A stretch of 34,125 nt of DNA from Acidimicrobiia bacterium. Lineage in GTDB: Bacteria; Actinomycetota; Acidimicrobiia; IMCC26256; PALSA-555. Under the pieces are notes generated by a model. It saw only the letters and a list, made by a program, of their open reading frames with translations, was not told the DNA's origin and did no database searches. The DNA lies in NCBI GenBank assembly GCA_040881685.1, contig JBBECS010000039.1, positions 1 through 34,125 on the forward strand, written 5' to 3'. Below are positions 839 to 7,805 of the stretch, in pieces. Within the stretch, counting starts at the first letter, position 1, and every line of letters begins with the position of its first letter. Made by a program: the position numbers and the translations under genes.

Positions 839-1468
839 GTGGAGCTCCTGCTGGTGCGGCACGGCGAGCCTGTGCGCATCGAGGAAGGTGAGGTCGAGGG
901 CCCGGCCGACCCGGGGCTCACGGAGCGCGGCCACGACCAGGCTGCGCGAGTGGGTGCGTGGCTCGCCGCCGAGGGCGTGGACGCGGTCGTCACGAGCCCG
1001 CTGCGGCGAGCGCGGGAGACGGCGGTGCCGCTCGCCGCCGCGCTCGGCGTGGAAGCCGAAATCGACGCCGGCGTATCCGAGTACGACGCGACCGCCGGTC
1101 ACTACATCCCGATCGAGGAGCTGCGCGAGGCCAAGGACGAGCGTTGGTACGCCACGATCGAAGGGCGCTGGGCCGACGTCGGCGGGATCGACCCACACGA
1201 GTTCCAACGCCAGGTGGTGCCTGCGCTCGACGACTTGATCGCGCGGCATGCCGGCCAGCGTGTCGCGGTCATGACGCACGGTGGCGTGATCAACGTGTTC
1301 CTCGCGCACGTGCTTGGCATCGATCGCTTGTTGTGGTTCCATCCCGAGTACACGTCGATCAGCTGTGTTCGCGCCGCGCGGTCGGGTGAGAAGAGCGTCG
1401 CCACCGTGAACGAGACCGCGCACCTCGTCGCATCCCGAGATCCGATGAGCACCGGAGGTTCGAGATGA
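839..1468 (+). CDS. Histidine phosphatase family protein (phosphoglycerate mutase-like)
   Basis: The 209-residue protein opens with LLVRHGEP, the catalytic RHG of the histidine phosphatase clan (His8 is the phospho-acceptor). SPLRRARETA supplies the second phosphate-binding arginine and MTHGGVINVF the second catalytic histidine. It is a cytosolic phosphatase or mutase. Broad families such as CobC, phosphoglycerate mutase-like and SixA share these motifs, so the substrate is unknown. The start is GTG at 839, because the RHG motif needs this short N-terminus. The stop overlaps the next gene's start in ATGA (1465-1468), which indicates translational coupling to the crotonase. Confidence 0.87.
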   Translation: MELLLVRHGEPVRIEEGEVEGPADPGLTERGHDQAARVGAWLAAEGVDAVVTSPLRRARETAVPLAAALGVEAEIDAGVSEYDATAGHYIPIEELREAKDERWYATIEGRWADVGGIDPHEFQRQVVPALDDLIARHAGQRVAVMTHGGVINVFLAHVLGIDRLLWFHPEYTSISCVRAARSGEKSVATVNETAHLVASRDPMSTGGSR

Positions 1469-2256
1469 CCGTGCACACTGAGTCGGACGGCCCCGTTCTC
1501 GTTGTGACGATCGACCGCCCCGAGCGCCGCAACGCGGTCGACGGACCGACGGCGACGGCGCTCACCGACGCGTTCCGAGCATTTGAAGCCGACGACGGGC
1601 TTTCGGTCGCCGTGCTCACCGGCGCGGACGGCATGTTCTGCGCGGGCGCCGATCTGAAAGCGATCCTCGAGGGGTGGGACGGCAGCGAGGACGGCAAGCC
1701 TGTCGACCCGCGCTCACTGTCGGCTGGTGAAGGGCCGCTCGGGCCCACGCGGATGCTGCTGGCGAAACCCGTCATCGCCGCGGTCGAGGGCTTTGCCGTT
1801 GCGGGCGGGCTCGAGCTCGCGTTGTGGTGTGATCTTCGCGTTGCGGCCCGCGATGCGGTGTTCGGCGTCTTCTGTCGGCGCTGGGGCGTGCCGCTGATCG
1901 ACGGTGGCACGGTGCGCCTCCCGCGCCTCATCGGCATGAGTCGTGCGCTCGACATGATCCTCACCGGTCGTGGTGTGTCGGGCGACGAAGCCATGACCAT
2001 GGGCCTCGCGAACCGGCTCGCAGAATCGGGTGGCGCGCTCGAGGCTGCGGTCGCACTCGCGCACGAGCTGGCCCGACTCCCCCAGGCATGCATGCGCGAA
2101 GACCGCGCCTCGACCTACGAGCAGGCGGGGATGGCACTCGACGAAGCGCTTCGCAACGAACACGAGCACGGAATCGCGCTGCTGAAGGGCAGCGACTTCC
2201 GCGCCGGCGTGGAGCGCTTTGGTGCCGGAGAAGGTAGACACGGCGCGTCGGCGTGA
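1465..2256 (+). CDS. Crotonase/enoyl-CoA hydratase family protein
   Basis: The 263-residue protein has the crotonase fold signatures: an N-terminal DRPERRNAVDG segment, the CAGADLKA oxyanion-hole motif, and the GFAVAGGLELAL block. Aligned by eye to mitochondrial enoyl-CoA hydratase, the first catalytic glutamate (GGLE) is present, but the second (GQPE in hydratase) is replaced by Cys in VFGVFC. Textbook hydratase chemistry is therefore uncertain, and an isomerase, hydrolase or other acyl-CoA role is possible. The start ATG overlaps the preceding stop by four bases and has a good ribosome binding site (GGAGG, 6 bases upstream). It forms one unit with the histidine phosphatase and probably with the HAD gene. 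Confidence 0.88.
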   Translation: MTVHTESDGPVLVVTIDRPERRNAVDGPTATALTDAFRAFEADDGLSVAVLTGADGMFCAGADLKAILEGWDGSEDGKPVDPRSLSAGEGPLGPTRMLLAKPVIAAVEGFAVAGGLELALWCDLRVAARDAVFGVFCRRWGVPLIDGGTVRLPRLIGMSRALDMILTGRGVSGDEAMTMGLANRLAESGGALEAAVALAHELARLPQACMREDRASTYEQAGMALDEALRNEHEHGIALLKGSDFRAGVERFGAGEGRHGASA

Positions 2257-2271
2257 CGGCGCGCCGAACGA

Positions 2272-3891
2272 TCAAACCTCGGGGAGCGGTCGCTCGGCCA
2301 TCGCCTCGGCCGCCTCGCTGGTGATGACCTCGATGGCCCGGTCGTAGATCGCGCGCGCGTCATCAGGCGAGTCGCCCACGGCCGTCAGACCGAAGAACCC
2401 ACGCTCGCCGAGGGCCCGGAGCATGTGGAACACCGCCCCGGTCTGGCGTGAGTGATCGAAGTGCAACCCGTTGCGCACGACGATGTCGAAGAGGTCGTCG
2501 GGTGTCAGCCCGCGATACAACGGCGACTCGACGTGGTCGCTCGCCACGAAGAACTTCTGCGTCCCCGACGGGGCCGTGAACGTGGCGGTCTCGGCGTCGT
2601 ACGTGCCGTCGGTGAGGAACTGAAGCGTGAGGAACGGATGGGTCGTCCCGCCCTTGCGGAGGTTGATCTCGATCGCGTATGTCTCCCACTCGTTCGCGTC
2701 GTTGCGCACCGCGATGAAATCGAGCGCGAACCGGCCGATGACGCCCTCTTTCGCGAGGCGCTTGCCGACCTTGGCTGCCTCGCGGGTGATCGCCCGCGCG
2801 TAGCCAGGGTTCGCCGGAAAGACGCACCCGAGGTAGGTCTGGCCGCTCGGCCCGCCGAGCAACTGGTCGTGCGTCGAGAGCAGCTCGACATCGCCGAGCG
2901 GCGTGATGCGCAGCTGCACGCTCGGGCTCTCGAAGTCCTTCCCCTGGATGAGCTCCTCGACGATCCCTCCGGTCACCTCCAGCTTCTCCGCGTACTGCGC
3001 GAACGTGGCGCCGGCCAGCTCGCATTGCATGCCCTCCAGCGCGCGGCGGATCGCGTCCTTCTCACCCGCGGAGCCAGGCTCGGGCACCCCGGCGAGATCG
3101 ATGAGCGCGTTGCCATGGCCCGAAACCCCTTCGTTGAGCTTGATGAGGACCTGGCTCATGGCCGGCTTGCGAGCGCGCACGTCGGCGATGGCGTCGATCG
3201 CGTCGTCGATCGTCCAGAGATCCTCGACGCCGAGCGGGTGCGACACGCCCTCGTCCTCGAAGATGCGTCGACAGCCGGTCTTCGTGCCGAAGGTGAAGTG
3301 CCGCGGGTCGGCTCCGTACATCGGGATGCCGAGACGAACCGCGACGTCACGCTCGAGCTCCGTCGTGTTGTACGGAACCAAGTGGGCACGGTTCGGGTCA
3401 GGGATCAGCGAGCGAATCCGCTCGAGAAGCCGGGGACGGTCGAGCAGCTTCTTGGACAACGGACCGGGCGAGGCGTCATGCACGGGCACCAAGAAGAGGC
3501 GCGGTCGCGCGTGGCTGGGGATCACCCCTGGAAGCAAGTCGAGGTAGTAGTCGATGACGCTTTGCAGGATCGGCTCGCAGGTGACGTAGATCAGCCGCGC
3601 CTTTGGCTGACGCAACAGCAAGAGGAGGAACAGGAATCGCTCCTCGTAGGGCTGTGACGAACTGGCCACGGCCGTACTGCTCTTGAGTGATCCCTCGAGC
3701 GTCATCGACGGGATCACGACGATCGTCTGCTCGTCCTGATTCATCGACCGGATGGACTTCCAGAGCGGCACGAGCTTCTCCTGGAGCAGCTCGAACCGCT
3801 CCTGGGCGTGCGGGGGCGATCCCGGCTCCAGGGCTTCGTCGATCTCCGACACGCGTGACTCCTCTGCTCCGTCCCCCAGGCGCGAGATCAT
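2272..3891 (-). CDS. PGM1-related ATP-grasp peptide ligase-like protein
   Basis: This 539-residue protein resembles the family named after PGM1, the ATP-grasp peptide ligase of pheganomycin biosynthesis. Seen in sequence: an N-terminal block with LIYVTCEPILQSVIDYY and LPGVIPSHARPRL, typical as I recall of the pre-ATP-grasp domain (about residues 95-215). A central ATP-grasp region follows with GTKTGCRRIFEDEGV, VLIKLNEGVSGHGN (Lys and Gly-rich loop) and YAIEINLRKGGTTHP (metal-binding Glu/Asn). A C-terminal region of about 100 residues carries YRGLTPDDLFD. It should activate a carboxylate as acyl-phosphate and ligate an amine; the substrates are unknown. It stands alone, with no precursor peptide or other biosynthetic gene nearby, and is divergent from the CBS-citrate synthase across 38 bases. 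No clear ribosome binding site was seen for the ATG at 3891. No signal peptide, so cytosolic. Confidence 0.82.
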   Translation of the reverse strand: MISRLGDGAEESRVSEIDEALEPGSPPHAQERFELLQEKLVPLWKSIRSMNQDEQTIVVIPSMTLEGSLKSSTAVASSSQPYEERFLFLLLLLRQPKARLIYVTCEPILQSVIDYYLDLLPGVIPSHARPRLFLVPVHDASPGPLSKKLLDRPRLLERIRSLIPDPNRAHLVPYNTTELERDVAVRLGIPMYGADPRHFTFGTKTGCRRIFEDEGVSHPLGVEDLWTIDDAIDAIADVRARKPAMSQVLIKLNEGVSGHGNALIDLAGVPEPGSAGEKDAIRRALEGMQCELAGATFAQYAEKLEVTGGIVEELIQGKDFESPSVQLRITPLGDVELLSTHDQLLGGPSGQTYLGCVFPANPGYARAITREAAKVGKRLAKEGVIGRFALDFIAVRNDANEWETYAIEINLRKGGTTHPFLTLQFLTDGTYDAETATFTAPSGTQKFFVASDHVESPLYRGLTPDDLFDIVVRNGLHFDHSRQTGAVFHMLRALGERGFFGLTAVGDSPDDARAIYDRAIEVITSEAAEAMAERPLPEV

Positions 3892-3914
3892 CGCGCGCCG
3901 ACAGCAGGCCCGGA

Positions 3915-3920
3915 TAGCCT
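3915..3920 (+). promoter_or_regulatory. -10 box TAGCCT upstream of CBS-citrate synthase
   Basis: TAGCCT lies 9 bases before the ATG at 3930, within the 38-base divergent gap shared with the ATP-grasp gene. Such a short gap means any regulator binding here would affect both genes. No -35 element is obvious. Confidence 0.4.
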
Positions 3921-3929
3921 GCAGTACCG

Positions 3930-5477
3930 ATGGCGGCAGCAGCAGACGGCAGGGTGCGGACCGTCGCCGACATCATGAGCCGTCCGGTCGTCACTGCCAC
4001 GGCCGACGAAGCCGTCGCCGACGCCGCGAACCGGATGCGCGAGCAGGGTGTTGGTTCGGTCGTCGTGGTGGAAGGCGATCGTCCGGTCGGCATCCTCACC
4101 GAGCGTGACCTCGTGCGATTGGCCGCGGCGCGCGCGACCGGGACCGACCTCGTTGAGCAGTGGATGACGCCCGACCCTGATTCGGTCGCGCCCCACGCCG
4201 AGGCCACCGCGGCATTCACGAGCCTGGCCGAGCACGGCTACCGGCACATCCCGGTGGTGGACGACGGGAAGCTGGTCGGGATCGTCTCGATGCGCGACCT
4301 CATGCGCATCGCACAGATCCAACCGGCCGAGCACCTTTCCCAGGATCTCCCCCGCGGACTCGAGGGCGTGGTCGTCGCCGAGACCGCGATCGGTGACGTG
4401 CGCGGGCTCGAGGGCTTCTACCACTACCGCCAGTACGACGCCGTGGAGCTCGCCGAGACCCGGTCGCTCGAAGACGTCTGGTACCTGCTGTACGAGGGCG
4501 AGCTGCCCTCGCGCGCCGAGCGCGACGCGTTCATGCGCGAGATCGCACCACTGCGCGTGATCCCACCCCCAGTGTTCGCGGCGCTTCCGCGGATCGCCGA
4601 GAGCGCGCCCGACGCGCCGCCCCTCGACCAGCTGCGGACGAGCGTCTCGCTGATGGGCGCCGCGCTCGGGTTCGGGCCCTCGCTGGACGTGAGCGCGGCG
4701 GAGCTGCGTGAGCAGGCATTGCGTGTGTGCGCGGCGGTCCCGAGTCTCTTGTGCGCCTTGTACCGCTTGAAGCACGGGCTCCCGGTGATCGAGCCCGACC
4801 CCGATCTCCCGTACTCAGCGAACTACCTCACGATGATGAAGGGGGAGGTACCGGATCCGGAGCACGCCCGCGCCGTCGAGCAGTACCTCATCTCGACGAT
4901 CGACCACGGCTTCAACGCATCCACGTTCACGGCCCGCGTGATCACGTCGACTGGCGCCGACCTCGCGGCGGCGGTGGTCGGCGGCATCGGCGCGCTGTCT
5001 GGGCCGCTTCACGGCGGGGCACCCAGCCGCGCGCTCGGCATGCTCGAGGACATCGGGACCATCGACAAGGCCGAGCCCTGGATTCGCGACGCGATCGAGC
5101 GCGGCGACCGGCTCATGGGCTTCGGTCACCGCGTCTACAAGACCGACGACCCGCGCTCGGTCATGCTCCGCAGCGTTGCCGAGCGCCTCGGTGGCGACAA
5201 CGTCGAGTTCGCCAAGCAGGTCGAGCAGAAGGCGATCGACCTCCTCGCCGAGCTCAAGCCCGGCCGCAAGCTGTACACGAACGTGGAGTTCTACGCCGGC
5301 ATCGTGATGGACGCGTGCGGCGTACCGCCGGAGATGTTCACCCCGACGTTCGCGTCGAGTCGCGTCATCGGGTGGACCGCGCACATCCTCGAGCAGGCCG
5401 CCGACAACCGCTTGATCCGACCGAGCGCGCATTACGTCGGGCCACCCCCGCCACAACCCGTTCCCGCCGCGGAGTAG
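3930..5477 (+). CDS. CBS-domain/citrate synthase fusion protein
   Basis: The 515-residue protein joins two CBS domains (about residues 12-66 and 75-128, with VGILTERDLVRL and VGIVSMRDLMRI) to a complete citrate synthase domain (about 143-510). Visible citrate synthase motifs are GPLHGGAPSRA (His361), MGFGHRVYKTDDPR (His400) and the C-terminal FTPTFASSRVIGWTAHILEQ. The third catalytic position, normally Asp in NVDFY, is Glu453 here. Citrate or 2-methylcitrate synthases condense acetyl- or propionyl-CoA with oxaloacetate. CBS pairs usually bind adenylates such as AMP, ATP or SAM, so energy-state control of the enzyme is a plausible inference. The ATG at 3930 has TAGCCT just upstream. A GNAT gene follows after 4 bases with a GGAG site inside this gene's end. 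Confidence 0.9.
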   Translation: MAAAADGRVRTVADIMSRPVVTATADEAVADAANRMREQGVGSVVVVEGDRPVGILTERDLVRLAAARATGTDLVEQWMTPDPDSVAPHAEATAAFTSLAEHGYRHIPVVDDGKLVGIVSMRDLMRIAQIQPAEHLSQDLPRGLEGVVVAETAIGDVRGLEGFYHYRQYDAVELAETRSLEDVWYLLYEGELPSRAERDAFMREIAPLRVIPPPVFAALPRIAESAPDAPPLDQLRTSVSLMGAALGFGPSLDVSAAELREQALRVCAAVPSLLCALYRLKHGLPVIEPDPDLPYSANYLTMMKGEVPDPEHARAVEQYLISTIDHGFNASTFTARVITSTGADLAAAVVGGIGALSGPLHGGAPSRALGMLEDIGTIDKAEPWIRDAIERGDRLMGFGHRVYKTDDPRSVMLRSVAERLGGDNVEFAKQVEQKAIDLLAELKPGRKLYTNVEFYAGIVMDACGVPPEMFTPTFASSRVIGWTAHILEQAADNRLIRPSAHYVGPPPPQPVPAAE

Positions 5478-6479: not shown

Positions 6480-7805
6480 ATGCGGCCCCTCGGGCGCAGC
6501 CCGCATGACCGGGAGATCCTCCGGCTGGCGCTCCCGGCGTTTGGGGCCCTCGCCGCCGAGCCGCTCTACCTGCTGGCCGATACCGCCATCGTCGGCCAGC
6601 TGGGCACCCGTCCGCTCGCCGGGCTCGCCATCGCCGGCACCGTCCTCACCGCTGCGTTCGGCGTGTGCAACTTCCTCGCCTATTCGACGACCGCGGCGGT
6701 GGCGCGGCGCGTGGGCGCCGGCGACCGCCGCACCGCGGCCCAGCTCGGCATCGACGGCATGTGGCTCGCGCTCGCCCTAGGCGTCGTGGTGATGATCGTC
6801 GGCGTCTTGCTCGCCCCCGACATCGTCGACGCCATGGGCGCATCGGCGCGGGTACGCCCCTTCGCGATCACGTACCTGCGGGTGAGCATGATCGGCGCTC
6901 CCGCGTTGCTCATGACGCTCGCAGCCACCGGGTATCTGCGCGGTCTCCAGGACACGCGAACAACGCTGGTGATCGCGGTCGCGTCCAACGCACTGAACCT
7001 GGTGCTCGAGATCGTGTTCGTCTTCGGCTTCGATTGGGGCATTGAGGGCTCAGCGTGGGGCACGGTGACCGCACAGCTCTGCGCTGCGGTGGCGTACGTG
7101 GTCATCGTCACGCGGTCGGCGCGCACCGAGGGCGCGTCGATCCGGCCGCGAAGTGTCGGCATGCGCCAGACCGCCGTGGTCGGCGGTCCGCTCATCCTGC
7201 GCACTGCGTCCCTGCTGGCCACGTTCCTTGCGGTCACGAACCTCGCCGCCCGGATCGGGGACGACGACGTCGCCGCCCACCAGATCGCCTTCCAGACGTT
7301 CTTCTTCCTCGCGCTGTCGGTCGACGCGCTCGCGATCGCCGGCCAGGCGATGGTCGGCCGCTTCCTCGGGGCGTCCGACGCAGCGCAAGCCCGAGCTGCC
7401 GCGCGCCGCCTCATCGAGTGGGGCGTGGCCCTCGGGCTCGTTCTCACGGTCGCGGTGGCCGCGGCGGCCACCTGGGTGGTTCGCGGCTTCAGTGACGATC
7501 CCGACGTCCGCCATCTCGCTCTCCAGCTCTTGCTGGTGGTCGCCGCGTTGCAACCCCTGAACGCGATCGTGTTCGTGCTCGACGGTGTGCTGATCGGAGC
7601 GGGCGACCAGCGCTTCCTCGCGCTCGCGATGGTCGGCGCGACGTTCGGCGTGTTCGCCCCCCTGGCGGTGGGCGTGACCCTGGCCGACGCGGGCGTGCTC
7701 GCACTGTGGGGCGCGTTGACGTGCTGGTTCGCGGCGCGCGGCGTCGCGCTCGTCGCGCGCTACGCAGGCCCGAACTGGCAGGTCACGGGCGCGATGAGAC
7801 GATGA
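6480..7805 (+). CDS. MATE family efflux transporter (DinF-like)
   Basis: The 441-residue membrane protein has length and hydrophobicity pattern of a 12-helix MATE exporter. The start LALPAFGALAAEPLYLLADTAIVGQLG contains the typical first helix with P..A......L.DTA.VG motif, and the matching helix of the second half includes AHQIAFQTFFFLALSVDALAIAGQ. The GDQRFLALAM stretch near the C-terminus is also common in the DinF branch. MATE proteins exchange protons or sodium for cationic drugs or metabolites; the substrate cannot be predicted. It is a single gene, 54 bases before the acyltransferase. The ATG at 6480 is supported by TACCGT upstream and by the short cytosolic tail expected before helix 1. 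Confidence 0.92.
   Translation: MRPLGRSPHDREILRLALPAFGALAAEPLYLLADTAIVGQLGTRPLAGLAIAGTVLTAAFGVCNFLAYSTTAAVARRVGAGDRRTAAQLGIDGMWLALALGVVVMIVGVLLAPDIVDAMGASARVRPFAITYLRVSMIGAPALLMTLAATGYLRGLQDTRTTLVIAVASNALNLVLEIVFVFGFDWGIEGSAWGTVTAQLCAAVAYVVIVTRSARTEGASIRPRSVGMRQTAVVGGPLILRTASLLATFLAVTNLAARIGDDDVAAHQIAFQTFFFLALSVDALAIAGQAMVGRFLGASDAAQARAAARRLIEWGVALGLVLTVAVAAAATWVVRGFSDDPDVRHLALQLLLVVAALQPLNAIVFVLDGVLIGAGDQRFLALAMVGATFGVFAPLAVGVTLADAGVLALWGALTCWFAARGVALVARYAGPNWQVTGAMRR

Follow-up and report, generated by a model that had tools for sequence, protein, structure and literature searches.

The window, meaning the whole 34,125-nucleotide stretch analyzed here, encodes a BesA/PGM1-like ATP-grasp ligase that falls short of the curated cut-off for BesA itself. 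The reading that we prefer, at a probability of about 0.6, is that this protein is an intact carboxylate-amine ligase of the BesA/PGM1 type with a putative gamma-glutamyl-type product, and that the window copy is a divergent stray, relocated or acquired, that now fills the gap separating a crotonase gene from a citrate synthase gene.

In ATP-grasp ligases, ATP serves to activate a carboxylate, which an amine then attacks (acyl-phosphate chemistry). By this scheme, the ligase would bind ATP and Mg2+ and would activate its carboxylate as an acyl phosphate. Attack of an amine on the acyl phosphate would then give an amide. The likeliest product would be a small amide or a dipeptide, gamma-glutamyl or similar, of the kind made by BesA, which according to its database name joins L-glutamate to an amino acid. 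A gamma-glutamyl amide is our best single guess, because BesA is the nearest solved relative and because the ligase has a GATase_4 partner in its closest relatives. We infer the acyl-phosphate chemistry, from the superfamily, and the glutamyl donor.

Identity of the ligase

The best Pfam match of the ligase is ATP-grasp_IQCH (PF24923), at 76.1 bits against a cut-off of 27. PGM1_C (37.2 bits, cut-off 22.5) and ATP-grasp_3 (26.9 bits) are also above their cut-offs. The PreAtp-grasp domain is below its cut-off in the window ligase (21.1 against 27.5 bits) and is passed by a distant relative (locus L023, 29.6 bits). The best NCBIfam match is BesA (NF042917), at 109.5 bits against an equivalog cut-off of 750. 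In the PDB, a single-sequence search matched BesA (8yi6) at an E value of 1.7e-28. There are 519 PDB matches with E values up to 0.001, the best being BesA and other ATP-grasp ligases; the carboxylases among them presumably carry ATP-grasp domains. A profile of 49 relatives matched BesA at 5.6e-79 over profile positions 34-497 of 505, the Streptomyces ATP-grasp peptide ligase 8ynd at 7.8e-8, and PGM1 at 0.047 over part of the length.

The predicted structure has the ATP-grasp fold (AlphaFold model, mean pLDDT 92.0, pTM 0.91). BesA 8yi6 ranks first in structural comparison, with a Foldseek E value of 1.0e-32 and a Z of 41.9 over 448 residues (rmsd 2.8). It is followed in order of Z by PGM1 (3wvq, 31.3; 3wvr, 30.9), 8ynd (30.7), and 8ynq (28.5), and the remaining ATP-grasp enzymes, of which 7r8q is the first, score 22.2 and lower. 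The original prediction called the protein a PGM1-type peptide ligase. The ligase identity holds and the PGM1_C model is passed, but the nearest solved enzyme is BesA, and PGM1 is more distant.

Extent and integrity of the gene

An open reading frame of 539 residues had been placed at 2272-3929. The 539-codon frame exists, but it is on the minus strand from 3891 to 2272, and the end at 3929, one base short of the citrate synthase start, includes the intergenic gap; read on the plus strand, the first frame of 2272-3929 contains 4 stops. The GTG at 3852, giving 526 amino acids, is more likely to be the start than the ATG at 3891, because AGAGGAG lies six bases upstream of the GTG, no clear ribosome-binding site is seen by eye at the ATG, residues 1-15 of the long form have pLDDT below 50 in an otherwise confident model, and the GTG matches the region in which the closest relatives start. 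The divergent orientation of the two genes holds as proposed, but the 38-base gap given for them depends on the ATG and becomes 77 bp with the GTG. A scan of 3780-4010 for sigma-70 consensus promoters and terminators found nothing.

The ligase reading frame has no internal stop codons. At 53 columns conserved in at least 95% of a 77-sequence alignment, which includes the window copy and leaves out six short or cut sequences, the window ligase has no deviations. A check for missing ATP-grasp ligands had been suggested, and none is missing: Lys204, Lys251, Glu312, Glu408, Asn410, and Arg412 are invariant in 49 sequences and are all present in the window ligase. We take these residues to be ATP/metal ligands from superfamily knowledge mapped onto the alignment. 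A loss of catalytic residues in the window ligase is excluded by the two alignments (77 and 49 sequences). About 27 of the 36 invariant columns of the 49-sequence alignment are kept in BesA too, as read by eye from the printed alignment. Compared with a second copy in the same genome, the window copy has a dN/dS of 0.19 (NG86).

Table 1. Coordinates of features in the window and at related loci (L numbers; G numbers are genomes)
Feature	Position	Strand	Remark
Crotonase/enoyl-CoA hydratase family gene	1465..2256	+	Looks intact in the window
9-bp direct repeat GCGCGCCGA, left copy	2259..2267		Edge of putative inserted segment
BesA/PGM1-like ATP-grasp ligase	2272..3852	-	Likely extent, GTG start, 526 aa; frame open to ATG 3891 (539 aa)
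Divergent intergenic region	3853..3929		77 bp with GTG 3852, 38 bp with ATG 3891
AGAGGAG, likely ribosome-binding site for GTG 3852	3859..3865	-	Read by eye
9-bp direct repeat GCGCGCCGA, right copy	3893..3901		Other edge of putative segment
TAGCCT, -10-like TANNNT hexamer	3915..3920	+	9 nt before the citrate synthase ATG
CBS-domain citrate synthase	3930..5477	+	515 aa, two CBS stretches and a citrate synthase domain
Ligase and amidotransferase-like two-gene unit	L015:8552-10936, L017:13015-15398, L018:9815-12181
Small gene and amidotransferase-like gene	L192:4443-5541, L193:5950-7048		G007 and G009, respectively
Kinase-cyclase-ligase operon	L014:3702-10635, L136:1271-6144, L138:5836-12654

Citrate synthase, crotonase, and other neighbors in the window

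The divergent citrate synthase with its two CBS stretches, as described in the original prediction, is real (Table 1). The TAGCCT hexamer before it may be part of a leaderless promoter of the citrate synthase; TAGCCT and TATCCT are found by eye at the same distance before the citrate synthase start in genomes G001 (L026) and G002 (L027), respectively.

Whether relatives keep the pair had been set as a check, with homologues that never stand beside a citrate synthase as the refuting outcome; this outcome is what the loci covered show. On the ligase side, 85 loci were covered, and 83 of these have a called ligase gene (the window and 82 elsewhere); some are short contigs and the matches in class and phylum genomes were fetched in part, so this is a partial view. 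A citrate synthase stands beside the ligase in none of the 82 other loci. The sole further citrate synthase-like gene called among the ligase loci is a truncated piece (101 residues, 40.6%) at the far end of L107; about 7 kb separate it from the ligase, and it is not a neighbor. On the citrate synthase side, the 12 full-length orthologues with CBS domains (L026-L037, 63-88% identical) all lack a ligase within 1.5 kb. In the loci covered, the idea of a conserved divergent unit is rejected from both sides. Because the ligase stands beside a citrate synthase only here among the genomes examined, the proposed role with a TCA-linked acid finds no support.

In 8 of the 12 orthologous loci, the citrate synthase is preceded by a crotonase gene or its remnant. 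In the sister genomes G001 and G002, the remnant is C-terminal, with matches to only the last 99 and the last 22 residues, respectively, and the crotonase gene of the window looks intact. Both genomes also carry sequence that by eye resembles the stretch before the window's citrate synthase, without the ligase. The simplest reading is that the ligase gene entered the gap that joins crotonase and citrate synthase in relatives. We infer this insertion event, by which the window copy would have moved or been acquired between the two genes in this lineage. The 9-bp direct repeat at the edges of the segment is suggestive only as an insertion scar and counts as weak evidence, because 160 of 20000 random pairs of window pieces do as well. 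Among repeats of at least 14 bp between 2100 and 4100, nothing was recognized as the ends of a mobile element. If the ligase was relocated or acquired, its citrate synthase neighbor says nothing about its substrate.

The original prediction also held that precursor, tailoring, and transporter genes are lacking. No precursor peptide or tailoring gene was recognized among the called window genes of at least 45 amino acids, and no RiPP-type cluster is seen among them; a tiny precursor peptide could escape, because genes below 45 amino acids were not called. A transporter gene is present, since a MATE-family gene lies at 6480-7805, 2.6 kb from the ligase and with no tie to it.

The second copy and its amidotransferase-like partner

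The genome encodes a second ligase copy on the same contig (G000:C39:69379-70929), 65 kb away and 76% identical to the window copy. The description of the ligase as an orphan therefore holds only in part: the window copy is alone, but a partnered copy exists in the same genome. A tree of 31 rows was built from 28 called ligases with at least 53% identity and 3 outgroup rows. The second copy and the copy of G002 form a pair (100/98) with the window copy outside, which rejects an origin of the window copy by recent duplication of the second copy. The window copy falls in a set of four (95/92) with L073, which is from another family, and its order relative to L073 has low support (80/44). Its end branch is 0.26, compared with 0.054 for the second copy. 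The window copy is thus either an old copy that has disappeared from other genomes or an acquisition from a relative. A foreign origin is not apparent from GC content, as both copies have a GC3 of 0.885.

A class II glutamine amidotransferase-like gene lies 9 bp downstream of the second copy. The two-gene unit is found at the second copy, in G002, and in G010, and the amidotransferase-like gene follows the ligase after 9 bp in L015, 8 bp in L017, and 18 bp in L018; in G003, it adjoins a ligase fragment at a contig end. The amidotransferase-like gene has a Pfam GATase_4 domain (194.1 bits). The protein starts with Met/Val-Cys, and we take the Cys near its start to be the expected nucleophile. 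This partner may remove or exchange the glutamyl group, or it may supply ammonia.

Close homologues of the amidotransferase-like gene (E below 1e-70) are found in 6 of 61 relatives, all of them among the 9 that have the ligase (E up to 0.001), and a cut-off of 1e-30 returns the same 6 from 395 genomes of the class. In 12 further relatives, only weak amidotransferase matches are found (31-37% identity). Among the 44 class genomes that have a ligase (43 plus the G003 fragment), 38 lack the close gene. With a presence in 6 of 44 ligase genomes, it cannot be a required partner of the ligase family, and the 6 genomes are not independent cases because they all come from one family. The contigs that carry the amidotransferase-like gene in G007 and G009 are not those of the ligase; on them, the gene comes directly after a small VOC/glyoxalase-like gene (by eye), whose counterpart, likewise by eye, is the gene just before the G010 ligase (L018:9263-9664). 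In L105, too, a gene from the cluster of this small gene precedes the ligase. The ligase has apparently been lost from, or gained at, the spot between the small gene and the amidotransferase-like gene.

Distribution and neighborhoods of the family

At E values up to 1e-30, the ligase is found in 43 of 395 genomes of the class, about one in nine, and in 49 of 396 genomes of the phylum. This makes the housekeeping role suggested for it doubtful. The ligase is also found in two Chloroflexota records and one Terrabacter record (L014). The record CAMDCC010000025.1 (L011) is titled Bifidobacterium breve and has 10611 bases identical to part of G002, which is from the window's genus; because of this identity, its title is probably wrong.

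No neighboring gene is common to all 83 ligase loci, which excludes a universal partner. The 42 same-strand neighbors within 100 bp are from many families, and recurrence is mostly among close relatives. In L014, L136, and L138, which form one tree clade (100/99), the ligase is the last of an operon with a kinase-like gene, a response regulator, and a response regulator/class III nucleotide cyclase, and the cyclase-ligase junction is a -4 overlap in all three. The kinase label is from a response-regulator match and size only, and the cyclase was assigned by Pfam in L014 and L138 and by similarity to both in L136. L014 and L138 also have a CRP-like gene on that strand, downstream of the ligase. 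A regulated product is possible for the ligase in this operon, and the operon hints that in other lineages the product is made on a regulatory cue.

An arginase-family gene (Pfam on L162 only) converges on the ligase in seven loci (L150, L156, L157, L161, L162, L164, and L170); it directly adjoins the ligase in six and is one gene further away in L156. In L137, L140, and L141, a transglutaminase-like gene (Pfam on L141) is convergent with the ligase; close by are a proteasome-like gene (Pfam on L140) and, by eye, an alpha-E-like gene, a set that to us resembles an Anbu-type proteasome cluster. In L098 (3954-12322), large proteins with class III cyclase-like sequence are encoded on both sides of the ligase, on the same strand 54 bp downstream and on the opposite strand upstream; the profile that detects them was partly built from one of them.

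Alternative explanations

The ligase could be tied to the citrate synthase, with the divergent promoter controlling both genes, and could convert a TCA-cycle acid into an amide. In favor of this, 38-77 bp separate the divergent genes, the ligase is intact and has a low dN/dS, and SAOUHSC_02373 (7r8q), which comes next in structural similarity after the BesA/PGM1 group, was solved together with ADP and citrate. At only Z 22.2 and 13% identity, 7r8q carries little weight, and its citrate may be a crystallization ion. The pairing is absent from the 82 other ligase loci and the 12 orthologues, and by eye the citrate synthases of the sister genomes have a similar upstream sequence without a ligase. 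We regard this explanation as very improbable, the least probable of those considered. The window copy could also be a decaying duplicate without function, in keeping with its longer end branch and its lack of an amidotransferase-like neighbor. The probability of this is low, given a frame without stops, the conservation of 53 of 53 near-invariant columns, and the dN/dS of 0.19. That the protein is a PGM1-like ligase acting on ribosomally made peptides, their precursor gene being unlinked, is somewhat less improbable but still unlikely: PGM1_C exceeds its Pfam cut-off and PGM1 and another Streptomyces peptide ligase rank next after BesA structurally, but BesA is much closer by sequence and fold, and the 83 loci have no neighbor cluster in common. 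None of the clusters listed or scanned was recognized as peptide biosynthesis, although most neighbors are unannotated and genes below 45 amino acids are uncalled.

The amidotransferase-like partner bears on two further explanations. In a glutamine-dependent amide synthase, the partner would free ammonia from glutamine and the ATP-grasp enzyme would amidate an acid, with the window copy using free ammonia or borrowing the partner. The GATase_4 membership, the spacing of 8-18 bp to the ligase seen in three genomes, and the Met/Val-Cys start are consistent with this. We nevertheless consider it unlikely, since the partner is absent from most ligase genomes, its best NCBIfam match, EgtC, is far below the cut-off, and the amine of BesA is by its name an amino acid. 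Somewhat more plausible, though still improbable, is a two-gene glutamylation/deglutamylation (or amidation) unit that, in this bacterial family, would serve a small-molecule pathway and pair a BesA-like ligase with a class II amidotransferase-like hydrolase; the window copy would be a partner-free member with a changed role. The points against our preferred reading, an intact BesA/PGM1-type ligase in a new location, include the low identity to BesA and the missed NF042917 cut-off, the absence of the amidotransferase-like gene from most ligase genomes, the place of the window copy outside the pair in the tree, and the quite different neighbors that the ligases of other lineages have.

Significance

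The interest of this gene is in the product of a patchy ligase family with no common neighbor. We know of no product for this family. BesA belongs to an antibiotic-type pathway. PGM1 belongs to such a pathway as well, according to PMC8939145. A literature search found no paper on the BesA structure, this bacterial family, or its product. The amidotransferase-like partner and the nucleotide cyclase operon are two leads to the product; the citrate synthase neighbor is none.

Comparison with known systems

BesA (L-propargylglycine--L-glutamate ligase, 8yi6) has its fold in common with the window ligase over 448 residues, and the stretches SPS, HDQ, GCRFPAD, and EINLRK are common to BesA and the profile consensus of the relatives. 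In contrast, the two proteins are only 25-26% identical, and none of the annotated neighbors in the window (eight proteins) matches a Bes-type model. Because of this identity and because the NF042917 cut-off is far from reached, the substrates of the ligase may differ from those of BesA. PGM1, the pheganomycin peptide ligase (3wvq/3wvr), has the same fold (Z 31.3) but is 16% identical with a profile match of 0.047, and no linked peptide pathway is seen for the window ligase.

The best Pfam model, PF24923, is named for IQCH, which we take to be an animal protein. This one domain model (ATP-grasp_IQCH) spans the bacterial ligase family and the animal protein, and no function is transferable from it to the window ligase. 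EgtC, of ergothioneine biosynthesis, is the best NCBIfam match of the amidotransferase-like protein (62 bits against a cut-off of 218.65), and the PDB entry 1te5 is matched at an E value of 7.3e-30. These two are relatives of the second copy's partner and not of the window gene. They have the class II amidotransferase domain in common with that partner, and here the domain is linked to an ATP-grasp ligase.
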